Below, in pieces: positions 924 through 11,805 of a DNA stretch of 57,233 nt; the stretch's first letter is position 1, and every line of letters starts with the position of its first letter. The DNA lies in NCBI GenBank assembly GCA_016342715.1, contig JAEINW010000006.1:1-57233 (forward strand), read 5' to 3'. The notes beneath the pieces were generated by a model, which did no database searches, had not been told where the DNA came from, and saw only the letters and a list, made by a program, of their open reading frames with translations. The position numbers and the translations under genes are program-made. This stretch comes from Salinivirgaceae bacterium (lineage in GTDB: Bacteria > Bacteroidota > Bacteroidia > Bacteroidales > SZUA-534).

Positions 924-2726
924 ATGAACACTTCAAACTCAAAGCAAATAAATGATTTCATAAAACAATTCCCAACAGACGAAGTAATTTCAACATTAAA
1001 TTCAATTGACAAAAAGATTAGTTCTCTTCATAGCATATCGTCAAAAGATTTTTTGTACTTCAATGCCTTATTAAAAGAATATTATTCTAAGATTAAACAA
1101 ATATCAGATGCAAACAACGAAATAAGTGTTTTCTTTTCTAAAAAAATACCTGAATTAGTTGATGAAATAAAAGAAAAAAACAAAAAAGCAAAAGATTACA
1201 TCGATCATTCAAAAAACAACAATTCTAAGGTTATTGAATATTTATCAATCATCTATTCTTCATTTGATTTAGTAATTGTTCCATTCAACAATTATAAACA
1301 AAACTTAATCACGTTTAAATATTTATTGGCTAACCTTAAACTACATTTAGGTTATGTTGAATTAGCAAATGGCAAAGAGCTGAAAAGTAGCGTACTAAGC
1401 ATCGAGAAACATATCGACACCATTTATTCCCAATTTGAAGAAATTGCCAATAGAACTCAAAACGTATCACATAACATTATAAATCTGAAAGAATTTGCGG
1501 TGCTTGCTCAAACAAAAAATAGCAATGAGGTTTATGATAAATTAAAAGCCATATCCAATAAAATAAAAAAAATATCTATCGACGAATATCTTCCTGGAAA
1601 TTACACGTTAGATCTTACACGTCGCACCCAAAATTGCTTTGCTAATATGGGAGAAGTGATTACTAATATCCAATATCATGATATTATTAGGCAGAAAATG
1701 GAACATATCCAAAAATCACAAAAAACCCTTATTGATGAATTAAATAAAATTGCCTCAACAGGCGACAATAACACGATTACAAACCAATTGGATTTTCTGA
1801 TTCGAATTCCTGAAATAACTGATATCCAAGTAGCACAGCTCCTTTATACCAATAGAGATTATCAAACATCTATTGAAAAAATAACGAGCAAATTGATTGG
1901 CGTTGGCCATGAAATGAAAGAAATAAACAGCATATATAGAGCAGTGACTACCAATATTGCTTCATTTGAAGATTCATTTATTTCGGAAATTTCTGGAAAT
2001 CAAGAATCATTTAGTACCTACATCAAATCGATAAATACAAATTGCAACAGTATTACCAATAAATACAATAAAATACATACAGAATATCACAACCTAAAAA
2101 CCGATTACAATGTAATATTTGATAATGAAAAACAATTACGAAAAGCCATTATAACTTTTGAAAAACTGATTGAAATAAATGGCAAAAACTTTGGGAAAGA
2201 ACTTGTCAAACGCTTAATTCAATTGGTCTCTGATTTGCAGTTCAATTCAAATTCAATCAAATCAAATTTAAATAACATTACTGGAAATTTCAGAACGCTT
2301 GATAATTTGGTGTCAACATTTAATTGCGAATACAAATTATTTCCGAACCAATCAGAAATAATTTCCAAGCTACATTCAGACACCAGCCAAACTAAAGGTA
2401 TTTGCGAGAATTTTACAAACTTAAGCATTACTATTTCTGAAGAAATAACCTCATCTATTAAAAAAATTGAATACTACATTTTTTTTAAAAATACGGTTGA
2501 AGAAATTGTTACTGCCTTAAATAGCATAAATGATATAGTAAACTACAAAAGTTTAAAAGAGCTAGTTTCCGACAATAAAGAAATATTAGACAAGATTCAA
2601 CAAATATATACCATGAAAAGCGAACGCGATATTCATGAAATGCTGACTGAATCAGGTAAAAACATATCTGATATCATAGAAAATGAAAATATTGATATGG
2701 ATGAGCACGATATTGAATTATTTTAA
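924..2726 (+). CDS. Large coiled-coil chemotaxis-locus protein, possibly CheZ-like
   Basis: A 600-residue, Lys/Glu/Asn-rich, almost wholly alpha-helical protein with no signal peptide or membrane segment. It is the first gene of the plus-strand chemotaxis run. I do not recognise a named family. Residues 250-262 read QYHDIIRQKMEHI; D253 and Q257 have the same spacing as the catalytic Asp and Gln of CheZ (D143/Q147 in E. coli, in a D-L-T-G-Q context), so a CheY-P phosphatase role is a reasonable inference. It has no MCP signalling hairpin signature. It ends in DIELF-COOH, resembling the endings of the proteins at 6910 and 9520. Alternative: a soluble, receptor-like scaffold. Existence of the gene is near certain; function is low confidence. 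Confidence 0.85.
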   Translation: MNTSNSKQINDFIKQFPTDEVISTLNSIDKKISSLHSISSKDFLYFNALLKEYYSKIKQISDANNEISVFFSKKIPELVDEIKEKNKKAKDYIDHSKNNNSKVIEYLSIIYSSFDLVIVPFNNYKQNLITFKYLLANLKLHLGYVELANGKELKSSVLSIEKHIDTIYSQFEEIANRTQNVSHNIINLKEFAVLAQTKNSNEVYDKLKAISNKIKKISIDEYLPGNYTLDLTRRTQNCFANMGEVITNIQYHDIIRQKMEHIQKSQKTLIDELNKIASTGDNNTITNQLDFLIRIPEITDIQVAQLLYTNRDYQTSIEKITSKLIGVGHEMKEINSIYRAVTTNIASFEDSFISEISGNQESFSTYIKSINTNCNSITNKYNKIHTEYHNLKTDYNVIFDNEKQLRKAIITFEKLIEINGKNFGKELVKRLIQLVSDLQFNSNSIKSNLNNITGNFRTLDNLVSTFNCEYKLFPNQSEIISKLHSDTSQTKGICENFTNLSITISEEITSSIKKIEYYIFFKNTVEEIVTALNSINDIVNYKSLKELVSDNKEILDKIQQIYTMKSERDIHEMLTESGKNISDIIENENIDMDEHDIELF

Positions 2727-2767
2727 ATAAATTTATTGAATCGTTTCGAAACATAAACTTAAATCGA

Positions 2768-3073
2768 ATGAAAGATTATTCAATTGACCTTAATCAAAAT
2801 AAAAAAGAAAAGTCTTCAAATGTAACTATTCACGGACAATTAAATATCACAAACATATCTGACATTAAAAAAGGCCTTGAAAAAGCCTTAAAAAGTAAAA
2901 AAATAGATATAACGCTTGATAATATTGATGATATGGATGTTTCTTTTTTACAATTAATTAAAGCTTATAAAACAAAATGCAAGGCAAATAATATTGAGCT
3001 AAACATTTCAAGCACACTAAACGATGATCTTAACTTGCTAATTATAAGAGCAGGTTTACAAAATATAGTATAA
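2768..3073 (+). CDS. STAS-domain protein (anti-sigma-antagonist-like)
   Basis: A 101-residue protein with the pattern of a STAS domain: VTIHGQLNITNISDIKK (strand plus first helix), then DITLDNIDDMDVSFLQLI, where the loop normally carries the regulated Ser/Thr (DVS here). Length matches single-domain STAS proteins. It sits 41 nt after the coiled-coil gene and 25 nt before cheY, so it is probably cotranscribed. STAS proteins are switched by Ser/Thr phosphorylation or act as small binding modules; no cognate serine kinase or phosphatase lies in the window. Its role here (a binding partner of the 600-aa protein or of CheA) is inference from position. Confidence 0.75.
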   Translation: MKDYSIDLNQNKKEKSSNVTIHGQLNITNISDIKKGLEKALKSKKIDITLDNIDDMDVSFLQLIKAYKTKCKANNIELNISSTLNDDLNLLIIRAGLQNIV

Positions 3074-3098
3074 TTTAAAACCAAAAATCCATTTTAAA

Positions 3099-3464
3099 AT
3101 GGGAAAACGAATTCTTATAGTTGATGATTCTGAAAGCATTAGAGAAGTAGTAAGTTTCACTTTAGAAAACGCTGGACACGATGTACTTAAAGGTATTGAT
3201 GGACAAGATGCATTAAAACATCTGGACGGATCAAAATTGGATTTAATAATAACCGATTTGCACATGCCAAATATGGATGGAATTGAATTCATTAGAAGCG
3301 TGCGTGCAAAAGAAGATTACAAATTTGTTCCAATTCTTTTTTTAACTACCGAATCGCAAACTGCAAAAAAAATGGAAGCAAAAGAAGCCGGCGCTACCGG
3401 TTGGATAATTAAACCTTTTGTTCCAGAAAAACTATTAGCTGCCATAAATAAAGTTGTGAGATAA
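3099..3464 (+). CDS. cheY: Chemotaxis response regulator CheY
   Basis: A 121-residue single receiver domain: D9-D10, phospho-acceptor D53 (ITDLHMPNMDG), Thr of FLTTES and Lys of IKPF are present. The sequence ILIVDDSESIREVVSFTL is typical of CheY proteins encoded next to CheA. Its stop codon overlaps the cheA start (TAATG at 3462-3466), which indicates translational coupling and makes it the likely phosphate acceptor of this CheA. No flagellar switch or type IV pilus gene is in the window, so its output is unknown. Confidence 0.93.
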   Translation: MGKRILIVDDSESIREVVSFTLENAGHDVLKGIDGQDALKHLDGSKLDLIITDLHMPNMDGIEFIRSVRAKEDYKFVPILFLTTESQTAKKMEAKEAGATGWIIKPFVPEKLLAAINKVVR

Positions 3465-5512
3465 TGGATAAATTCAGAGATAAATTTATTGAAGAAGCCA
3501 GTGATTTAATTAACGAGCTGGAAAAGGTATTACTTGAGCTAGAAAGCAATAAAGAAAATCCAGACCTTATTCAACAAATATTTAGGGTGATGCATTCGCT
3601 AAAAGGTGGAAGTGCCATGTTTGGGTTCAACAAAATTGACAAATTCACACATCATCTGGAAAATATTTACGATCTCATTCGCAATAATAAATTGCAAATG
3701 ACTGATGAAATTCTAGATATCACATTAGCTGCAGTTGATCATTTGCGGAATTTAGCTCAAGAAAAAGACGATTCTGAAACTAAAAATAACATACAACACG
3801 ATTTATTATTAGTCAAAATTGTTGATATAATAAATGAAAACGTTGCCGGTTTAGAAGAAAATAAAACAATACAACCCATAGTTGTTGCCTCCAACAAGGA
3901 ACTCTCAACTTATTACATAAGCTTTAAACCTTACCATAATATATTCAATTATGGAACCAATCCATTGTATTTAATTGATGAGCTTTGCGACTTAGGAGAA
4001 ACAAAAATATTCCCTCGATATGATAATTTGCCTGATCTTGATGATTTAGATGAAAAAAAATGCTTTTTTTATTGGGATATATTTTTAGCTACTAACCAAG
4101 GAATTAATGCCATTAGCGAAGTTTTTATTTTTGCCGATGACCAATGCAAATTAAAAGTCCACAAAATTTCAGAGATAAACCTATTAGAGGAAATATCTTT
4201 CATTGGGATAATTGAAGAAACCATTAATAACCAGAAAGACATTAATATTGATCAGCTTTTGCTATTGACCCATGAACTTGAAAAAGTTTTTGAAAAAGAG
4301 CAGGCTAAAACTGAAAAACAAACAACAACAACAAGTCACGAAGCAGGAATTTCAAGTATCCGCGTATCATCTGAAAAGCTTGACAATTTAATTAATTGGG
4401 TTAGTGAGTTAGTGACCATTCAAGCACGTTTAAGTTTATTTGCACAAGAAACCGAAACCGATGGATTATTACCCATTGCTGAAGAAGTTGAAAAAATATC
4501 GCGACATTTAAGAGATGATGTTTTTAGCATTCGATTGATTCCAATTGAAAATATGTTGACACGATTCCAACGATTGGTTCGTGAATTATCGCATGAATTA
4601 AACAAAGATGTGGTATTTAAAACTGAAGGAACTGAAACTGAGTTAGATAAAAACATTATCGAAGTATTAGCCGATCCTTTGATGCACATTATTAGAAATA
4701 GCTTAGATCACGGAATTGAAAGCACCGAAGAAAGAAAAAAACTAGGCAAACCGAATCGTTCCGTCATTCTATTAAAAGCATTTTATTCGGGTACAAATGT
4801 AATTATTCAAATTTCTGATGATGGAAAAGGAATTGATCCTGAAAAAATTAAGAGTCAAGCAATCTTAAAAGGTCTAATTTCGCACGATGCAGATTTTAGC
4901 AAAAAAGAAGCCTTAGACTTATTATTTTTACCAGGATTCTCAACTGCCGAAAAAATTACAAAAGTTTCTGGTCGTGGAGTTGGAATGGATGTGGTAAAAC
5001 GTAAAATAGCCGAAATAAGAGGTGAAGTAGATATTGATTCAATTTTAAACGAAGGTACTACCATCACCATTCGATTACCCCTTACCCTTTCAATAATTGA
5101 TGGTTTATTGGTTCAAATAGGCGAAACAAAATTTGTGATTCCATTATCGTCAGTAGATAAATGTTACGAATTTAAACATGAAAAACTAGCTAATTCGGTA
5201 AATTATTTAATTCGCACCGATGATCATGAAGTAGCATTCTTAAACTTACGTGAAATGTTTGTGATTGATGGTACACCACCTGAAACCGAACATGTAGTAG
5301 TGGTTCAGTTTGGTGAAACAAAAATCGGACTCTCAGTTGACAACATCATTGGACAATATCAGGCTGTATTAAAACCACTTGGAAAACTGTATAAAAAACA
5401 GCAATCTATTTCAGGTGCAACCATTCTTGGCGACGGTACCGTTGCACTGGTATTAGATACAAATAAACTCATTAGCGATTATGCTCATAGTGAGAAAAAA
5501 ATTGGAGGTTAA
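3464..5512 (+). CDS. cheA: Chemotaxis histidine kinase CheA
   Basis: A 682-residue protein with normal CheA order: Hpt/P1 at about 1-110 with the phosphorylated H44 (MHSLKGGSAMFGF), a P2-like region at about 145-260 (FKPYHNIFNYGTNPLYLIDEL), P3 dimerisation from about 295, HATPase P4 with its N-box near residue 405 (HIIRNSLDHGIES), DDGKGID and GRGVGMD nucleotide-binding loops, and a C-terminal CheW-like P5 domain from about 540. All catalytic motifs are intact, so it should be an active kinase for CheY (3099) and CheB (8285). It begins within the cheY stop codon and ends 2 nt before cheW. The kinase normally needs MCP receptors to form arrays; none is encoded nearby. Confidence 0.95.
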   Translation: MDKFRDKFIEEASDLINELEKVLLELESNKENPDLIQQIFRVMHSLKGGSAMFGFNKIDKFTHHLENIYDLIRNNKLQMTDEILDITLAAVDHLRNLAQEKDDSETKNNIQHDLLLVKIVDIINENVAGLEENKTIQPIVVASNKELSTYYISFKPYHNIFNYGTNPLYLIDELCDLGETKIFPRYDNLPDLDDLDEKKCFFYWDIFLATNQGINAISEVFIFADDQCKLKVHKISEINLLEEISFIGIIEETINNQKDINIDQLLLLTHELEKVFEKEQAKTEKQTTTTSHEAGISSIRVSSEKLDNLINWVSELVTIQARLSLFAQETETDGLLPIAEEVEKISRHLRDDVFSIRLIPIENMLTRFQRLVRELSHELNKDVVFKTEGTETELDKNIIEVLADPLMHIIRNSLDHGIESTEERKKLGKPNRSVILLKAFYSGTNVIIQISDDGKGIDPEKIKSQAILKGLISHDADFSKKEALDLLFLPGFSTAEKITKVSGRGVGMDVVKRKIAEIRGEVDIDSILNEGTTITIRLPLTLSIIDGLLVQIGETKFVIPLSSVDKCYEFKHEKLANSVNYLIRTDDHEVAFLNLREMFVIDGTPPETEHVVVVQFGETKIGLSVDNIIGQYQAVLKPLGKLYKKQQSISGATILGDGTVALVLDTNKLISDYAHSEKKIGG

Positions 5513-5514
5513 TT

Positions 5515-6024
5515 ATGAACGAAAATAACACATTAGCTAACGATAATGTAACTACCTTTTTAACGTTCATCCTTGGTAAAGAAATTTTTGCCACCAACGT
5601 AAAAAAAGTTCTTACTATTTTGGAAATGAGACCCATAACAAAGGTTCCAAATTCTCCGGAATATATGCGAGGAGTTATAAATTTACGCGGCAATGTATTA
5701 CCAGTTATTGATATGCGCATTAAATTTGGTATGAGCCCCACACAATTTACCGACAATACTTGCATTATTGTATTAAATGTTACCATCGAAGATGAGGAAC
5801 TACAATTAGGAATTTTAGTAGATGCTGTTGATAAAGTACTTGAACTAAAAGAATCGGAAATTGAAGAATCGCCATCAATAGGCACCAAATACAAAGTTGA
5901 ATTTATTCAAGGAATGTATAAGTTAGAAGACGGTTTTATAATGCTTTTAAATATGGATTTAATATTTAATTCCGAAGTAATAATTTTAGCAAAAGAAAAC
6001 GAGTCAGTAGCAATAGATGAATAA
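5515..6024 (+). CDS. cheW: Chemotaxis coupling protein CheW
   Basis: A 169-residue CheW-domain protein with the signature TFILGKEIFATNVKKVLTIL, then PNSPEYMRGVINLRGNVLPV and a C-terminal GMYKLEDGFIMLLNMD. It couples receptors to the P5 domain of CheA. Length and motifs are usual for the family. It starts 2 nt after cheA and is followed 25 nt later by cheR, so it is part of the same operon. Only one cheW is present here. Confidence 0.95.
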   Translation: MNENNTLANDNVTTFLTFILGKEIFATNVKKVLTILEMRPITKVPNSPEYMRGVINLRGNVLPVIDMRIKFGMSPTQFTDNTCIIVLNVTIEDEELQLGILVDAVDKVLELKESEIEESPSIGTKYKVEFIQGMYKLEDGFIMLLNMDLIFNSEVIILAKENESVAIDE

Positions 6025-6049
6025 AAAATTATAAATAAATACAATCATA

Positions 6050-6898
6050 ATGGACAATAACTTGTTCAAAAATATATATCAAGCAACATTAACAGATTCG
6101 GAATTTAATAAGCTTAGTACATTTATTCAAAGTAATTATGGCATTAAAATGCCTCCTGCTAAAAAAATTGTACTTCAAGGCAGATTACAAAGGCGCCTAA
6201 AGCATTTAAAAATTCCAGACTTTAAATCGTATATTGAATATGTTTTTAGTAAAAATGGCGAAAATGAAATTATCCATATGATGGATGTGGTTTCAACAAA
6301 TAAAACCGATTTTTACAGAGAACCTGTTCATTTTGATTTTCTTAGAGAAGAATTGTTACCTGCTTTATATTCCCAAAAAAAAAATCATATAAAAATATGG
6401 AGTGCCGGTTGCAGTTCAGGTGAAGAACCCTATACCTTGGCAATTGTTTGTCAGGAATTTAAAGAGAAAAACCCAAACTTTGATTTTAGCATAATTGCCA
6501 CAGATATTTCGACTCAAATGCTACAAGATGGAGCAAATGCAATTTATAAGGAAGAAAAAATTGAGATTGTACCCATTGAACAAAAACGAAAGTATTTTTT
6601 ACGTTCAAAAGATAAGAGTAATCCTGTAGTTAGAGTATCGAAACAATTGCGAAACAAAGTTAGCTTTCAAAGGTTAAATTTTATGGATAATGCCTATTAT
6701 ATAAATGACTCATTTGATATCATTTTTTGCAGAAATGCATTAATTTACTTTGAACGCGAAAATCAAGAAAATGTAATCAATAAATTATGCGGCAAATTAA
6801 AACCTGACGGATATTTTTTTCTTGGCCATTCAGAATCAATTACAAACATGAACGTGCCATTAGCGAGTATAAAACCAACTATTTTCAAGAAAAAGTAA
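6050..6898 (+). CDS. cheR: Chemoreceptor methyltransferase CheR
   Basis: A 282-residue protein with the all-helical CheR N domain (about 15-70) and a SAM-dependent methyltransferase domain (IWSAGCSSGEEPYTLAI, ATDIS, FDIIFCRNALIYF, GHSES). It would methylate glutamates on a receptor. The beta-subdomain loop (YFLRSKDKSNPVVRV) has the same length as the pentapeptide-binding loop of enteric CheR but lacks its glycines. This is relevant because three neighbouring proteins end in E-[LI]-F. Its substrate is not an MCP encoded in this window. Followed 11 nt later by the kinase-like gene. Confidence 0.93.
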   Translation: MDNNLFKNIYQATLTDSEFNKLSTFIQSNYGIKMPPAKKIVLQGRLQRRLKHLKIPDFKSYIEYVFSKNGENEIIHMMDVVSTNKTDFYREPVHFDFLREELLPALYSQKKNHIKIWSAGCSSGEEPYTLAIVCQEFKEKNPNFDFSIIATDISTQMLQDGANAIYKEEKIEIVPIEQKRKYFLRSKDKSNPVVRVSKQLRNKVSFQRLNFMDNAYYINDSFDIIFCRNALIYFERENQENVINKLCGKLKPDGYFFLGHSESITNMNVPLASIKPTIFKKK

Positions 6899-6909
6899 AA
6901 ATTACGGCT

Positions 6910-7809
6910 ATGCTATCAGATAAAGAATTAATAGAGCAGTTGCACGCAAAGCTCAATGAATTAAAAAGCTCACAGAAGCTTATTGAAAGGCAACAAGACG
7001 AACTAAAACTAGTTAACGAAAAACTTGCAGAATCTGAGGCTCTAAAAAGCCATTTTATATCAAACATAACCAACGAAATTATAAATCCATTTGCCTCAAT
7101 ATTAGGCTTATCAAAAAACATTATTGCAGCAAAAGATAGCGACATTATCAAAATAAAGAGCATGGCTGAACTAATTCATTCAGAAGCTTTTGAATTAGAT
7201 TTTCAACTTAAAAACATTTTTACTGCCGCTAAGATCGAAGCAGGCGAAGCTTGTCCCGATTATGTTAAAACCGACATTAACCTTCTACTTGCTAGTATTA
7301 TAAGTGCTTACAAATACAAGGCTGAACAAAAACAACTAAAAATAAATTTCTCCTTTGAGCTTGATAAAAAACTCACAGAAACAATATACTTTTCTACTGA
7401 CCCAGAAAAGCTTAAATTAATTTTATCGAATTTATTAAGTAACAGTATTAAATATAGCAATGCTGCCAATAAAATTGAGGTAAAAGGTTGGATCGATAAT
7501 AACAAGCTAAATGTAGCTGTTAAAGACCGGGGAATTGGCATAGACAAGAAAAATCTGGAAATAATTTTCGATCGTTTTAAGCGACTTGATTCCTCAATAA
7601 ACTCAATTAATCCGGGTCACGGATTAGGATTGTCAGTTACAAAAGCATTACTCGATTTACTTGAAGGAAAAATTGACATTGTTAGCAAACGAAACTTAGG
7701 ATCAGTATTTACAATAAGCATTCCACAAGTAGAGGGTGCGAATACTGAAGATTACGCAATGGATGGAAATGAATTCATATTTGGGGATAGCGACAATGAA
7801 ATTTTCTAA
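6910..7809 (+). CDS. Cytosolic histidine-kinase-like protein lacking the acceptor His
   Basis: A 299-residue soluble protein: N-terminal coiled coil (about 5-45), HisKA-like segment and a complete HATPase domain with N-box (ILSNLLSNSIKYSN), G1 (VKDRGIGID), F-box region (IIFDRFKR) and G2 (GHGLGLSVTKALL). The H-box, normally S-H-E-[IL]-R-x-P, reads NITNEIINP: the acceptor position is N55 (codon AAC at 7072-7074). The other H-box residues are conserved, so this looks like a selected change or a simple point mutation rather than general decay. It may act as a phosphatase, a dimerisation partner or an ATP-dependent scaffold. It ends in DNEIF-COOH and overlaps cheD by 14 nt. Call as kinase family is secure; activity is inference. 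Confidence 0.9.
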   Translation: MLSDKELIEQLHAKLNELKSSQKLIERQQDELKLVNEKLAESEALKSHFISNITNEIINPFASILGLSKNIIAAKDSDIIKIKSMAELIHSEAFELDFQLKNIFTAAKIEAGEACPDYVKTDINLLLASIISAYKYKAEQKQLKINFSFELDKKLTETIYFSTDPEKLKLILSNLLSNSIKYSNAANKIEVKGWIDNNKLNVAVKDRGIGIDKKNLEIIFDRFKRLDSSINSINPGHGLGLSVTKALLDLLEGKIDIVSKRNLGSVFTISIPQVEGANTEDYAMDGNEFIFGDSDNEIF

Positions 7810-8281
7810 AACTAATACCGAGATTAAAACCCATTATCTATATCCTGCGGCACTTTTTGCAGATACAGAACCACATATTGTAGATACTATTTTAGGTTCT
7901 TGCGTGGCTGTTTGCTTATACGATCCGATAAAAAAAATAGGCGGAATAAATCATTACATGCTTCCATTTTGGAACGGCAATGGACTTGCCTCTCCAAAAT
8001 ATGGAAATATTGCTATTCAAAAACTAATTGAGAAATTACACTCCTTTGGATGTAAAACTGAAAATATTCAAGCCAAAGTATTTGGTGGAGGCGAAGTGAT
8101 AGTTACCGAAATAAATTTATTCAAAATTGGTCAACGTAATATTGAAATAGCTTTAAAGACACTAAGTGAATTAAATATTAGAATAACTGGTAAAAGTGTA
8201 GGTGGAAATCACGGTAGAAAAATTCGATTTAATACTGAATCAGGTGTTGTTATGATGAAACTAATACAAAAATCTACATAA
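7796..8281 (+). CDS. cheD: Chemoreceptor glutamine deamidase CheD
   Basis: A 161-residue CheD. The catalytic Cys and His are C36 (ILGSCVAVCLYD) and H53 (GGINHYMLP), followed by KVFGGGEVI and SVGGNHGRKIRF, all family hallmarks. I chose the ATG at 7796 because it precedes the conserved region by the usual distance and has GGGGAT about 8 nt upstream; the frame is open to 7736 but that extension lies inside the previous gene. CheD deamidates receptor glutamines and, in some species, works with CheC. No cheC is present here. Its retention implies that a receptor with methylation sites exists elsewhere in the genome. Confidence 0.93.
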   Translation: MKFSKTNTEIKTHYLYPAALFADTEPHIVDTILGSCVAVCLYDPIKKIGGINHYMLPFWNGNGLASPKYGNIAIQKLIEKLHSFGCKTENIQAKVFGGGEVIVTEINLFKIGQRNIEIALKTLSELNIRITGKSVGGNHGRKIRFNTESGVVMMKLIQKST

Positions 8282-8284
8282 ATA

Positions 8285-9373
8285 ATGGATCGTAAAATTA
8301 AAGTATTAATTGTTGATGATTCAGCTATAGTGAGACAAACCCTGGCTGACATTCTGGGAACCGATCCTATGATTGAAGTAATTGGCGTTGCAGCCGATCC
8401 ATATTTTGCTGCAAAAAAAATTGTTCACGAAGTTCCTGATGTTATAACCCTCGACATAGAAATGCCTAAAATGGATGGCTTGACTTTCTTGAAAAAAATA
8501 ATGACTCAACATCCAATTCCGGTGGTAATAATTTCAAGCTTAACAGCCGCAGGAACAGAAACCGGAATTAAAGCCTTAGAATTAGGTGCCGTTGAAATTG
8601 TTACCAAACCTAAACTAAGCACTAAAGAATTTTTTGAAGAATCTCGTATTCGAATTCGTGACGCAGTTAAAGCTGCGGCAGAATCAAAACTTTCAAGAAA
8701 AAAAGCAATTAAATATATTTCTACTTCACAAATCGAAATAAAACCGAAGCTTAGTGCAGATGCGGTTCTACCAAAAAGTACCCCATCAACAAGTATGATA
8801 AAAACTACTCAAAAAGTTGTTGTGGTTGGCGCCTCTACAGGTGGTACAGAAGCTTTACGGGTTTTTCTAGAAGCTATGCCTGCCGATAGTCCTGGAATTG
8901 TAATTGCACAACACATGCCTGAGCAGTTTACTCGTTCGTTTGCTGAGCGTTTAGATCAATTATGCAGCATTTCAGTTAAAGAAGCCGCAAATAACGATAC
9001 CGTAATTCGTGGCCGAGCGTTAATTGCCCCAGGAAACCATCACTTAATATTAAAACGAAGTGGTGCTCGCTATTTTGTTGAAATTAATGATGGCCCATTA
9101 GTAAACAGGCATCGCCCTTCTGTAGACGTTTTATTCAGATCTACTGCTAAATATGCAGGTAAAAATGCAATTGGCGTTATTATGACTGGAATGGGAGATG
9201 ATGGTGCTAAAGGTATGCTAGAATTAAATGAAACTGGAGCTCACACTATTGCACAAGATGAAAAAACATGCATTGTTTTTGGAATGCCAAAAGAAGCTAT
9301 TAAATTAGGAGGTGTTGAATATACGCTACCCTTAAACGATATTGCTTCGAAAGTTCTTAAATTACAATATTAA
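8285..9373 (+). CDS. cheB: Chemotaxis response regulator methylesterase CheB
   Basis: A 362-residue protein with an N-terminal receiver (D11-D12, acceptor D57 in [11 protein letters not shown]) and a C-terminal methylesterase/deamidase domain with its catalytic triad S184 (VGASTGG), H210 (AQHMP) and D306 ([10 protein letters not shown]). The linker at about 135-175 is Lys/Ser rich. It removes receptor methyl groups when phosphorylated by CheA and so opposes CheR. It lies 3 nt after cheD and is the last core che gene of the run. No C-terminal E-[LI]-F is present; it ends in KLQY. Confidence 0.95.
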
Positions 9374-9480
9374 TATAGCAATAAGTAATTAGCCAATGTT
9401 TTACTGTTTATATTCCGCAGGTTTTCTAATGAATTCAAAAATATTTTAGTATTTTTAATGCTCATAGTTGGAATAAATAC

Positions 9481-9488
9481 TATGTTTG
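9481..9488 (+). promoter_or_regulatory. Candidate -7 promoter element (TATGTTTG)
   Basis: TATGTTTG matches the Bacteroidota -7 consensus TAnnTTTG and lies 31 nt before the start of the GAF/PAS gene. No good TTTG -33 element is at the expected spacing, so the call is tentative. It would make the GAF/PAS gene separately transcribable from the che run. Confidence 0.4.
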
Positions 9489-9519
9489 CGTAATGAATTC
9501 ATCTTCAATCACAACATGA

Positions 9520-11805
9520 ATGGAAAAGAATAGAGTTAAGAATTTCAAGCTTCAATTTATATTTATAGGTTTTATTATTGGATTAATAATTGTTAGCATA
9601 ATATATGCTTTCACCCTATCAGCAAATAACTTCCTTTTTACCTTAAAAAATCTAGCTACTATACATACCCATGGCTTACAATATTATGTAATTGATGCTA
9701 TTCCAATTTTTATGGCTCTTTTGGGATATCTAATTGGTTTTTATACGCAATCAATTGCTCTGAAACTTGACAAGTTGGAATTGCAAACGCAAAATGCCTC
9801 AACCAACATGTTAACATTTGCTAATAATCTTGCAAAAGGTGTATTAGAATCAGAATATGAACCTTCTAAAGACAATTCACTTGGTAAAATTCTTGTAAAT
9901 CTTCGTAATAGTTTATTACTAAATAAAAAAGAAGAGGCACAGCGCAAAAAAGAAGACGAGCAAAGAAATTGGATAGCAGAAGGATTAGCAAAATTCGGTG
10001 ACATATTAAGGCAAAATAATGATAATATAGAATTACTATCTTACGACTTAGTAAGCAATTTATGTCGATATATTGACGCCGTGCAAGGTGGCTTTTTCAT
10101 AATTAATGATGAAATTGAAGAAGACAAATTCTTTGAATTAGTTGCACATTTTGCCTATGATAGGAAAAAATTTAACAAAAAAAGATTAGAATTATCCGAA
10201 GGATTGGTTGGAAGATCAGCCTTCGAAAAAAGTACTATTTACATTGACGAAGTTCCTGATAACTACGTAGATATCACATCAGGTTTGGGTGAAGCCAATC
10301 CAAGAACACTGCTTATTGTTCCATTAAAAGTTAACGACATTGTTTACGGCGTTATTGAAATGGCATCCTTCCATTATTTTGATCCTTACAAAATAGAATT
10401 TGTTGAAAAAGTTGCTGAAAACATTGCAACTACTTATTCTACTGTAAAAATCAATTTAAAAACTGCATATTTACTTAGCGAATCCAGAGAAGCTGCAGAG
10501 CGTCTTACGCAACAAGAAGAAGAGATGCGTCAAAACATGGAAGAACTTCAAGCTACTCAAGAAGAAGCAGCAAAACAGGCAGAAGAATTTGTGAGTTTTA
10601 CCAATTCAGTAAACCACACCTTAATTAGAGCAGAATACGATATAAATGGAGTATTGCTTTATGCAAATACCAAGTTTCTAAAGAAAATAGGCTATACCGG
10701 AAATAATGAAGTTGAAGGACATCATATTTCAATGTTTATAAGCGATAAAGATAAAACTTGGTTTAACGAAATATGGGATACACTTGCAAAAGGTGGGCGG
10801 CATTTCGAAGGTTACATGAAACATGTGACAAAATCAGGAAAAGATTTATGGACTATGGCTACCTATACTTGCGTTAGAAATAATGCGCAAGGTGTTGATA
10901 AAATTCTTTTCTTGGCTATTGATACTACTGAACATAAAGAACAAAGTTTGGACTTAGAAGGTCAAATTGAGGCCATAAACCAAACTAGCTTGAAAGTAGA
11001 ATATGCACCAAGTGGTAGAATGCTAGATTGCAACGATCGATTCATTAAAATATTAGGATACAGCACTGAAGATTTGAAAGATTATAGTGTTGTTAACTTT
11101 ATGGGCGAAGATGAACAAAGTGATTTTGAAGAAACATGGAATAAAGTAGTTAATGGAAAACCTTTCAGAGGTCAATCAAAATTAATTACAAAATCAGGCA
11201 AGGCAAAATGGTTTGATGTTACCTATACTGCTGCTCTCAATATGTATGGCGAAGTTTCTAAAATAATTTCGATTGCTAATGATATTACAGAGCAAAAAGA
11301 AATGGAGATTCTTACCAAACAACAAAATGAGCTACTTAAAAAACAAGAAGAAGAGCTCAAAGCCAATGAAATTGCACTTCAAAAACGATTAGATGATGCA
11401 CGTAAAGAAGTTAAGCAACAATTCCAGGAAATTGAAAAGGTTAAAATTCGTAACGAAAAGACACTTGAAGGTGCTCATGATGCCATTTTAACGATAAATC
11501 AAGAAGGTATTATTGAGTTCTTTAACCGTGCGGCTGAAAACCTTTGGGGCTATTCTCGTAAAGAAGTTCTTGGAAAAAATGTGAAAATCTTATTCAGCGA
11601 AGTTAAGAATATGCTAGAAGATGAAATGGTTTACACATTAACACATCCTGAAAAACGCAAAATGGTTGGTGTTCGAAGAGAAACTCACATAATTACAAAA
11701 GAAGGCTCACCATTGGATATTATTATACTTTTAGCAGGAGCAAAAGTGCAAAATGAATATGCTTATACTGCATTTATACAGAATATTGAAGTTGAGTTAT
11801 TTTAA
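9520..11805 (+). CDS. Membrane GAF/triple-PAS sensor protein without output domain
   Basis: A 761-residue protein. Two membrane helices (about 10-30 and 54-73) are followed by a GAF domain (about 155-315), a coiled coil with NMEELQATQEEAAKQ (about 320-350), PAS1 (about 355-465), PAS2 (about 475-590), a second coiled coil (about 590-645) and PAS3 (about 645-750). There is no HisKA/HATPase, GGDEF or MCP signalling hairpin. The Q-x-x-x-E-E-M/L-R-Q-N-M-E-E-L-Q-A-T-Q-E-E type coil is common in Bacteroidota PAS and MCP-like sensors. It ends in EVELF-COOH. Placed next to cheB and sharing this ending, it is a candidate input protein for the Che system. A strong terminator follows. Confidence 0.88.
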   Translation: MEKNRVKNFKLQFIFIGFIIGLIIVSIIYAFTLSANNFLFTLKNLATIHTHGLQYYVIDAIPIFMALLGYLIGFYTQSIALKLDKLELQTQNASTNMLTFANNLAKGVLESEYEPSKDNSLGKILVNLRNSLLLNKKEEAQRKKEDEQRNWIAEGLAKFGDILRQNNDNIELLSYDLVSNLCRYIDAVQGGFFIINDEIEEDKFFELVAHFAYDRKKFNKKRLELSEGLVGRSAFEKSTIYIDEVPDNYVDITSGLGEANPRTLLIVPLKVNDIVYGVIEMASFHYFDPYKIEFVEKVAENIATTYSTVKINLKTAYLLSESREAAERLTQQEEEMRQNMEELQATQEEAAKQAEEFVSFTNSVNHTLIRAEYDINGVLLYANTKFLKKIGYTGNNEVEGHHISMFISDKDKTWFNEIWDTLAKGGRHFEGYMKHVTKSGKDLWTMATYTCVRNNAQGVDKILFLAIDTTEHKEQSLDLEGQIEAINQTSLKVEYAPSGRMLDCNDRFIKILGYSTEDLKDYSVVNFMGEDEQSDFEETWNKVVNGKPFRGQSKLITKSGKAKWFDVTYTAALNMYGEVSKIISIANDITEQKEMEILTKQQNELLKKQEEELKANEIALQKRLDDARKEVKQQFQEIEKVKIRNEKTLEGAHDAILTINQEGIIEFFNRAAENLWGYSRKEVLGKNVKILFSEVKNMLEDEMVYTLTHPEKRKMVGVRRETHIITKEGSPLDIIILLAGAKVQNEYAYTAFIQNIEVELF

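Follow-up and report, generated by a model that had tools for sequence, protein, structure and literature searches.

The window analysed here, a 57,233-nucleotide stretch from a Salinivirgaceae bacterium of the order Bacteroidales, carries near its start a chemotaxis gene cluster with the following features.

924..2726 (+): coiled-coil protein (CC), 600 aa, with long helices and then a disordered C-terminal segment; candidate CheZ-like phosphatase
1671..1706 (+): CC site Q250-x-x-D253-x-x-x-Q257-x-x-x-H261, a CheZ-like D-x-x-x-Q signature (orthologue conservation)
2709..2723 (+): CC C-terminal tail DIELF (orthologue conservation)
2768..3073 (+): protein with a STAS domain, encoded between CC and cheY (Pfam STAS, E=3.3e-6)
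3099..3464 (+): CheY (Pfam Response_reg); proposed substrate and hub
3464..5512 (+): CheA (Pfam Hpt, H-kinase_dim, HATPase_c, CheW)
5515..6024 (+): CheW (Pfam CheW)
6050..6898 (+): CheR (Pfam CheR_N and CheR), with a beta-subdomain of pentapeptide-binding length
6910..7809 (+): histidine-kinase-like protein without phospho-histidine, 299 aa (HATPase_c, E=1.6e-23; sub-threshold HisKA hit, E=0.018)
7072..7086 (+): kinase-like H-box N55-E56-I-I-N59, with Asn in place of His and E-x-x-N retained (orthologue conservation)
7768..7782 (+): kinase-like first tail-motif copy N287-E-F-I-F291 (F291 invariant, 33/33; N287 at least 90%)
7792..7806 (+): kinase-like C-terminal tail DNEIF, its codons overlapping the proposed cheD start at 7796
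7796..8281 (+): CheD, start proposed (Pfam CheD, E=1.1e-26 for the scanned stretch 7808-8281)
8285..9373 (+): CheB (Pfam Response_reg and CheB_methylest)
9520..11805 (+): protein with a GAF and three PAS domains (Pfam GAF_2; PAS_9 in 3 stretches; no kinase domain match)
11788..11802 (+): GAF/PAS C-terminal tail EVELF, immediately after the last PAS domain

Three of these proteins end alike. The ORFs of CC (..DEHDIELF), the kinase-like protein (..GDSDNEIF) and the GAF/PAS protein (..FIQNIEVELF) close with DIELF, DNEIF and EVELF, confirming the E-[LI]-F ends at 2726, 7809 and 11805 reported in an initial annotation. As also reported there, CheY, CheA, CheW, CheR and CheB have unrelated ends (KVVR, KIGG, AIDE, FKKK and KLQY), and so does CheD (QKST). 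Unrelated ends in relatives, which the annotation had named as a refutation of its docking idea, were not found, as the tails are conserved in orthologues: an E-[LF]-F end occurs in 58/58 distinct CC sequences and [ED]-[LF]-F in 60/61 of the GAF/PAS proteins, while the kinase-like proteins have a terminal F in 90/93 and D/E at position -3 in 82/93. Among the ORFs of 80 named loci, [DE]-x-F ends are found in CC (34/34), kinase-like (71/79) and GAF/PAS proteins (52/53), compared with CheR (0/74), CheB (0/75), CheD (0/76), CheW (0/45), CheY (0/53) and CheA (2/57). Right-aligned entropies, as suggested initially, show that the last five residues are more conserved than positions -6 to -25 in all three families, with 0.85 versus 3.16 bits for CC (n=38), 1.65 versus 2.68 bits for the kinase-like protein (n=33) and 0.33 versus 1.15 bits for the GAF/PAS protein (n=19). 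The corresponding values in bits are 1.83/1.47 for CheR, 2.94/2.85 for CheB, 3.31/3.21 for CheD, 3.19/2.86 for CheA, 3.00/3.26 for CheW and 0.90/0.38 for CheY. In the whole 5.54-Mb genome, [DENK]-[LIVMF]-E-[LIVMF]-F-stop, a pattern that does not include DNEIF, is found 20 times (24 times for the reversed-pattern control); only two of these close long reading frames, namely the CC and GAF/PAS genes of this cluster, and the remaining 18 close open frames of at most 51 aa.

The resemblance between the three tails is real and beyond chance. Position 5 is F, E/D is retained at position 3, position 4 is mostly hydrophobic, and position 2 is I/L/V, D/E/N/G or similar; the second-position aromatic of NWETF is missing, as the initial annotation had stated, with one DFELF among relatives as the exception. 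Because the kinase-like tail is mostly polar where the other two have aliphatic residues, speaking of one motif for all three is a generalization. Two of the tails sit on flexible or variable segments (CC, as judged by pLDDT, and the kinase-like protein, with a variable stretch before the tail). We regard the tail as very probably a functional docking motif.

CC matches occur in 57/393 genomes of the order, including the source genome. Its AF2 model (mean pLDDT 80.5) consists of long helices, a disordered stretch formed by the C-terminal 50 residues, and the tail, with residues 548-563 and 565-600 below 50. Only 7 of the 600 positions are invariant among 38 orthologues (F43, Q250, D253, Q257, H261, E598 and F600), four of which form the site Q250, D253, Q257 and H261. 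This Q..D...Q...H arrangement is present in 57/58 distinct CC sequences, the exception being a 327-aa fragment, and all five homologues found outside the order combine Q-[FS]-H-D-x-x-R-Q with an ELF end. D253 and Q257 match the D-x-x-x-Q active-site motif, which CheZ requires according to PMC3510030. In 34/34 named loci showing both genes, CC precedes cheY on the same strand with fewer than 700 bases between them; with a limit of 1200 bases, this order is seen in 31/33 loci of the order, whose genomes overlap with the named-locus set; in five loci of the order, CC is present and the cluster cheY is absent from the stretch read. No CC ORF is present in 17 of the 51 named loci that extend 2,500 bases or more upstream of cheY; an MCP-like gene takes its place in 16 of these, and the kinase-like protein retains its tail in all 17.

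Detectable homology between CC and CheZ was not found. Pfam CheZ (PF04344) does not match the window CC at E<=0.1, CheZ is absent among the 15 Pfam families listed for 32 CC members at E<=0.01 and among the CC structure matches listed, and hhalign against E. coli CheZ gave a probability of 0.2 (0-100 scale; E 0.33), i.e. no significant homology. In the whole genome, the CheX, CheC and CheZ profiles have no match at E<=0.001.

In the kinase-like protein, the phospho-acceptor His is replaced by Asn and the phosphatase Asn is retained (N55 and N59 in 93/93 distinct orthologues), while kinases retrieved with the same profile across the phylum have His in 17/17 boxes matched (17 of 19 loci inspected). 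The ATP-site residues of HATPase domains (N, DxGxG, GxGLG) are present, with N174, N178, D206, G208, G236, G238, L239 and G240 invariant among 33 orthologues and G210 at least 90% conserved. In HisKA kinases, PMC3510030 describes a Thr/Asn four residues after the His as needed for phosphatase activity, and the residue equivalent to E56 as needed for kinase, not phosphatase, activity. Besides the conserved N55 and N59, E56 too is invariant, and the invariance of E56 counts against a pure phosphatase reading of this protein. For EnvZ, it is disputed whether the His contributes to phosphatase catalysis (PMC5231405). CC or the kinase-like protein is rather probably a receiver phosphatase.

The receptors of this organism are encoded elsewhere. 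The initial annotation found no receptor in the window, which holds for the window itself and not for the genome, where ten MCP genes lie on other contigs. Four of these MCPs have a C-terminal extension closing with EFEKM, EFEQY, EYEKY or NFDKY. In related clusters, 50 MCP-like ORFs with tails such as NYEKF, aromatic at position 2, have Y/F at -4 in 42, E at -3 in 43, a terminal F/Y in 43 and K/R/S at position 4 in 44. An aromatic at -4, E at -3 and an aromatic end are the CheR/CheB docking features described in PMC7390727 and PMC8609364, the former presenting the position-2 aromatic as central to CheR binding. Since MCPs with their own tails exist and the three proteins bear a second, different tail, these proteins do not replace MCPs, contrary to what had been suggested. 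Nor are the three tails MCP docking pentapeptides of the usual kind: of the aromatics at positions 2 and 5 only that at position 5 is present, and there is no MCP signalling domain (MCPsignal has no match at E<=0.1 in any of the three window proteins; it matches 1/32 CC orthologues, at E=0.0039 only). Pentapeptide-independent CheRs carry a beta-subdomain deletion. The window CheR has a full-length beta-subdomain, as expected of a pentapeptide-dependent CheR, three residues longer than in P. aeruginosa CheR1 and without a gap relative to the pentapeptide-binding S. typhimurium CheR (1AF7/1BC5); given this gapless alignment, the tails of the MCPs are the ligands one would first expect for it. 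In P. aeruginosa, only CheR2 of four CheRs bound the pentapeptide (PMC7390727).

We propose that a docking motif common to the three C-termini, a largely acidic stretch whose end reads roughly [DEN]-x-[ED]-[LIF]-F-COOH, would tether these proteins to one hub protein. CC (D-x-x-x-Q) and the His-less kinase-like protein (E-x-x-N, intact ATP site) would act as dedicated phosphatases of a phosphorylated receiver, filling the job of CheZ or CheX, and the GAF/PAS protein may be an input or output partner at the hub. The hub would most likely be CheY, bound in the manner of the CheZ C-terminal segment on E. coli CheY, an assignment we make tentatively. CheY residues K94, K95, K99, K115 and R125 (E. 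coli numbering) are invariant or nearly so, and mean entropies (n=54) are 0.25 bits for alpha1, 0.51 for alpha4, 0.10 for beta5, 0.62 for alpha5, 0.66 for alpha2 and 1.06 for alpha3; such a basic face would suit an acidic tail. An artificial single-chain fold of the CC tail, STAS protein and CheY gave no sign of docking, with a tail block-mean pLDDT of 29-47 and CheY mostly at 84-94. This outcome, the related clusters without a CC gene and the lack of significant CheZ homology weigh against the explanation. For the explanation as a whole (docking tail, two phosphatases, GAF/PAS sensor and CheY hub), we estimate a probability of roughly 0.4.

Other partners have to be weighed against CheY. The tails could dock CheR and/or CheB through the MCP-pentapeptide pocket, for example bringing CheB-P to the two putative phosphatases. 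MCP tails (DNYEKF, DEYEKF) and CC tails (DNLELF, DDIELF) share acidic-x-hydrophobic-E-x-F, a resemblance that could indicate a common CheR/CheB pocket, and the CheR beta-subdomain has the appropriate length. However, the position-2 aromatic of 42/50 MCP-like ORFs is lacking in the three tails, apart from rare exceptions such as the DFELF, and their position 4 is mostly hydrophobic instead of K/R/S (44/50). Moreover, we know of no kind of methylation substrate that CC, the kinase-like or the GAF/PAS protein resembles, which also counts against docking to CheR/CheB. Even though E3 and F5 belong to the three residues most important for binding CheB according to PMC8609364, we consider this pocket an unlikely site. 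Slightly less doubtful, though still improbable, is a different hub (CheA, CheW, CheD or a further protein) serving receptor-array localisation. It is favoured by the five stretches outside the order, all with the tailed CC gene beside cheY and cheA (near cheW, cheR, cheD and cheB in L190 and L192), in which kinase-like and GAF/PAS family genes were not seen, and by E. coli CheZ, which reaches the cell poles by binding CheA (PMC7750401), but positive evidence points to no single candidate.

Alternatively, the three ends might not be one motif: two docking tails of independent origin and the terminus of a PAS domain could look alike by convergence or chance. The kinase-like tail does differ at position 2, and the GAF/PAS end joins the PAS core directly, with no linker and a flank that is conserved too. 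Yet in the other two PAS repeats of this protein the last strand is followed by T-E-[HQ]-K and only the third ends in EVELF, the tail pattern closes real genes of this genome only in this cluster, and the terminal F is kept in CC, kinase-like and GAF/PAS families alike (38/38, 31/33 and 19/19 aligned orthologues; 34/34, 79/79 and 52/53 in named loci). We regard this reading as quite improbable.

Under the preferred reading of tails that gather phosphatases at CheY, CheY switch-off in pathways that, like the one of this genome, lack a match to CheZ, CheX or CheC gains two candidates with named active-site residues, and the short tail is amenable to peptide binding. Going further, and still more tentatively than the CheY assignment, a Bacteroidales chemosensory pathway may run two parallel tail codes: x-[YF]-E-K-F on receptors for CheR/CheB, and the aromatic-free [DEN]-x-[ED]-[LIF]-F on non-receptors. 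The latter would recruit to the response regulator a GAF/PAS sensor and two phosphatases of unrelated ancestry, one a coiled coil remotely like CheZ, the other a histidine kinase converted into a dedicated phosphatase. This suggests that one pathway may keep two codes apart by positions 2 and 4, a question in short-motif specificity.

Among known systems, CheZ combines a helical bundle with a linker and, at its C terminus, a segment that binds CheY (PMC7750401), the latter reading ..VDDLLDSLGF; the E. coli protein ends in VASQDQVDDLLDSLGF. CC, as modelled, resembles it in having a D-x-x-x-Q site within a helix, a helical body, a linker-like stretch, an acidic C-terminal segment ending in F and a gene beside cheY (E. 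coli cheZ adjoins cheY). It differs in length (600 versus 214 aa), in undetectable sequence homology, in site context (Q-x-x-D-x-x-x-Q-x-x-x-H versus A-x-x-F-Q-D-x-x-x-Q), in its very short conserved tail and in the absence of its gene from some related clusters. With HisKA kinases in phosphatase mode (CrdS, EnvZ) and pseudokinases (DivL), the kinase-like protein shares the DHp and HATPase layout, the ATP-site residues and the Thr/Asn residue; it differs from HisKA kinases and DivL by the His-to-Asn replacement in 93/93 orthologues examined, a two-part tail (NE-x-x-F ... EIF) and its place inside a che cluster. Its E-x-x-N is also the motif of CheX/CheC, which have a different fold. Lastly, the three tails resemble NWETF-type MCP pentapeptides in being C-terminal and acidic, with F as the fifth residue and E (or D) as the third, in CC also behind a flexible linker, but they are found on non-receptor proteins, lack the position-2 aromatic and are mostly hydrophobic at position 4, while the canonical pentapeptide is carried separately by four of the ten MCPs encoded in this genome and, in related clusters, by most MCP-like genes.

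Three proteins of the chemosensory cluster end in E-[LI]-F, and their open reading frames (ORFs) and ends were found as the initial annotation had described them:

924-2726, + strand, coiled-coil protein (600 aa), ending DIELF
6910-7809, + strand, kinase-like protein (299 aa), ending DNEIF
9520-11805, + strand, GAF/PAS protein, ending EVELF
7796-7809, + strand, proposed ATG start of cheD, which overlaps the final codons of the kinase-like gene by 14 bases (ATGAAATTTTCTAA)
380-763, - strand, stand-alone receiver protein, divergent, upstream of the coiled-coil gene

The genes are ordered coiled-coil protein, STAS, CheY, CheA, CheW, CheR, kinase-like protein, CheD, CheB, GAF/PAS protein. Receivers similar to that at 380-763 stand at the same place in a number of relatives; other relatives carry a receiver gene ahead of the coiled-coil gene and co-directional with it.

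The tails were followed in two sets of relatives' clusters that overlap in genomes, the order loci and the named loci. Orthologues were taken as one best match per locus above bit-score thresholds of our own choosing (38 coiled-coil, 33 kinase-like and 21 GAF/PAS sequences, 2 of the last without a stop and left out of the counts), from 40 order stretches plus L011, L051 and L053, which represent part of the matching genomes; L050 was omitted as a duplicate genome. The named loci are the best 80 of 308 stretches, mostly Bacteroidales/Marinilabiliales (e.g. Marinilabilia, Anaerophaga, Carboxylicivirga, Labilibacter and Salinivirgaceae MAGs), with tail counts limited to stop-terminated ORFs no shorter than 90 aa. 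Named strains with a related cluster include Perlabentimonas gracilis M08_MB, whose L144 has the coiled-coil and kinase-like genes, and Marinilabilia salmonicolor, whose L153 has the kinase-like and GAF/PAS genes. Merging order-locus orthologues with named-locus ORFs gave the distinct-sequence sets.

The initial annotation had proposed comparing the last five residues with their flank, and this comparison came out in favour of the tails. Mean entropy over the five C-terminal residues, set against that of the 20 preceding ones, was 0.85 versus 3.16 bits for the coiled-coil protein, 1.65 versus 2.68 for the kinase-like protein and 0.33 versus 1.15 for the GAF/PAS protein. The other Che ends gave 1.83 versus 1.47 (CheR), 2.94 versus 2.85 (CheB), 3.31 versus 3.21 (CheD), 3.19 versus 2.86 (CheA), 3.00 versus 3.26 (CheW) and 0.90 versus 0.38 (CheY). 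Among distinct sequences, the 58 coiled-coil proteins end ELF (36) or EFF (22), 90 of 93 kinase-like proteins end in F with D/E at -3 in 82, and the 61 GAF/PAS proteins end EVELF (35), SVDLF (20), SVELF (3), SVDFF (1) or SIDLF (1), the last one being a split ORF that ends TLAAQ. The five coiled-coil homologues from beyond the order likewise terminate in ELF (5/5), and the kinase-like protein has a second motif copy eight residues earlier, N287-[ED]-x-x-F291, with F291 in 33/33. Orthologues with unrelated ends had been named as contrary evidence; we looked for them and found the ends to be shared.

Two simpler explanations of these ends were rejected. The tail is not a common protein end: [DENK]-phi-E-phi-F-stop (where phi stands for any of L, I, V, M and F) is present 20 times genome-wide and 24 times in the control, just 2 of the 20 close a long reading frame, and both lie in this cluster; a stricter form of the motif matched once in the genome, at the coiled-coil gene, and not at all in the control. 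Neither is the kinase tail kept merely through its codon overlap with cheD, since 65 of 76 named kinase-like/cheD pairs (first-start calls) do not overlap and 79/79 kinase-like ORFs end in F. As judged from their conservation across orthologues, the three C-terminal tails are real and under selection.

The coiled-coil family was detected in 8/20 genomes of the taxonomic family, 57/393 of the order and 6/395 spread over the phylum, counts that all include the own genome; the two wider scans scored the top three candidates per genome. The kinase-like family is found in 53/198 order genomes at E<=1e-40; over the phylum its profile matches 46/395 genomes at E<=1e-45, with at most 179 bits except in the own genome (468) and mostly in frames of >500 aa. 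A 1047-aa protein adjoining the cluster of one relative (L141:2768-5911) matches CheY in part and ends YGDVDLF; it may be a further tail carrier or a chance occurrence.

The kinase-like protein has an intact HATPase domain and an H-box reading N55-E-x-x-N59-P-F, in which Asn takes the place of His in 93/93 distinct orthologues; the count in the 79 named sequences is biased, as one of the two search patterns for the named loci contains this Asn (NEI), while the 33 order sequences were gathered independently of it. In kinases over the phylum, identified with the same profile, His is kept in 17/17 matched boxes, that is in 17/19 loci, under a box pattern that requires R/K three residues past His and so selects ordinary kinases. 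Thr/Asn at the N59 place is described as required by HisKA proteins for their phosphatase but not their kinase activity (PMC3510030), and the His as dispensable for the NarX phosphatase reaction, a point disputed in EnvZ (PMC5231405). The GAF/PAS protein consists of a GAF and three PAS domains, with the tail immediately after the last PAS domain, and gave no match to a kinase domain.

Only F43, Q250, D253, Q257, H261, E598 and F600 are invariant in the 38 coiled-coil orthologues, whose identity to the window protein goes down to 17%. D-x-x-x-Q is described as the motif that marks the catalytic site of CheZ, and likewise of HisKA_3 kinases in their phosphatase role (PMC3510030). In 34/34 named and 31/33 order loci showing both genes (the exceptions being L063 and L094), the coiled-coil gene is found on the upstream side of cheY, frequently separated from it by a STAS gene, and E. 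coli cheZ likewise adjoins cheY. Membership of the CheZ family was nevertheless rejected, as CheZ profile and homology tests failed. The structure model is entirely helical, apart from a disordered C-terminal segment beginning near residue 548; the structure matches listed for it are long helices of a generic kind (SMC coiled coils, TTYH, F-BAR; VIA highest, Z 13.7), and CheZ is not among them, which says little either way. A profile search with the alignment against solved structures returned, among 60 of 214 matches listed, mostly generic coiled coils/helical bundles and some MCPs. Counting against a CheZ-like reading, a coiled-coil ORF is missing upstream of cheY in 17 of the 51 named loci whose sequence reaches 2,500 bases or more in that direction, while the kinase-like tail is kept in 17/17.

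In 16 of these 17 loci (L128, L135, L137, L138, L142, L143, L150, L156, L164, L165, L171, L173, L179, L180, L181, L183) an MCP-like gene occupies the coiled-coil place, before the gene preceding cheY (a STAS match in most), a swap of receptor and coiled-coil protein at one place. The 9 such ORFs examined share 50-59% identity with own-genome MCPs over 270-337 aa and lack the coiled-coil signature.

Both proteins have active-site signatures, and CheZ, CheX and CheC profiles gave no match in the own genome (a 98%-complete draft of 358 contigs); we infer that the coiled-coil and kinase-like proteins are probably dedicated receiver phosphatases.

The suggestion that the three proteins replace MCPs did not hold up. 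Other contigs of the genome carry ten MCP genes (from eleven profile matches, two of which share a frame), six stopping shortly past the signalling domain and four with a longer C-terminal extension bearing its own tail (EFEKM, EFEQY, EYEKY or NFDKY). With the tailed MCPs as queries, 50 MCP-like ORFs were retrieved from the named loci, having Y/F at -4 in 42, E at -3 in 43, K/R/S at -2 in 44 and F/Y at -1 in 43. The MCP pentapeptide is described as aromatic at positions 2 and 5, acidic elsewhere and highly abundant in Bacteroidetes (PMC7390727), and by their residue pattern the tails of these 50 ORFs are of this known type. Among otherwise unlabelled named-locus ORFs ending [DE]-x-F, 35 of 37 belong to the MCP-like set. 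The beta-subdomain of the window CheR aligns without gaps to that of the pentapeptide-binding S. typhimurium CheR; P. aeruginosa CheR1 has three residues fewer in this part. Given these tails and this alignment, receptor docking has, on sequence grounds, a tail of its own, and the three proteins are no MCP replacement.

Several clusters also encode a second short CheR-like protein (about 207-228 codons; L191:2290-2910, L192:11845-12465, L194:7420-8043, L064:13977-14660, L088:11321-11950), 25-30% identical to CheR. Further CheR-domain matches lie on own-genome contigs C81, C57, C301, C93 and C26; three of these matches fall within open frames 505-613 aa long.

The tails may bring two candidate phosphatases and a sensor to one hub, for which CheY is our tentative choice (probability about 0.35). 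The phosphatase signatures, the gene order and the precedent of CheZ would all speak for CheY. CheZ and FliM are described as sharing one CheY face, alpha4-beta5-alpha5 (PMC3774744), and the CheY-binding region of CheZ as C-terminal (PMC7750401). Across 54 CheY sequences, alpha1 and a basic face formed by alpha4-beta5 are conserved, which was counted in favour of CheY; rough entropies for the CheB receiver (E. coli CheY numbering, no gap correction) were 1.10 (alpha1), 1.10 (alpha2), 0.32 (alpha3), 0.83 (alpha4), 0.75 (beta5) and 1.30 bits (alpha5). Against CheY stands an AF2 prediction in which the coiled-coil tail was joined to STAS and CheY in a single chain, an artificial construct that came without coordinates and is weak either way: it was negative, with block means of 29-47 pLDDT in the tail, no better than the 30-46 from residue 551 of the coiled-coil protein alone. 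Docking to CheR or CheB instead is less likely than docking to CheY; in its favour, DNLELF resembles DNYEKF and, of the three key residues described in PMC8609364, two are retained. The three proteins agree with the MCP tail at two positions, the third (E or D) and the fifth (F), but position 2 is aromatic in MCPs and aliphatic or polar here, and position 4, which is K/R/S in MCPs, is mostly hydrophobic in the three proteins, some kinase-like tails having T, E or S.

By its conservation across relatives, this is a second C-terminal tail code, real and conserved, in a Bacteroidales chemosensory cluster, and its carriers are two likely phosphatases of unrelated origin and one sensor. Nothing on this system appeared among the literature matches listed (open-licence PMC only; Bacteroidota clusters, His-less kinases with CheY, remote CheZ), and it may still be in print. 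The phosphatase and docking claims are both directly testable. By the tests made, the tail belongs neither to the MCP pentapeptide nor to the CheZ C-terminus; as a putative docking tail it would, by analogy, work like both.
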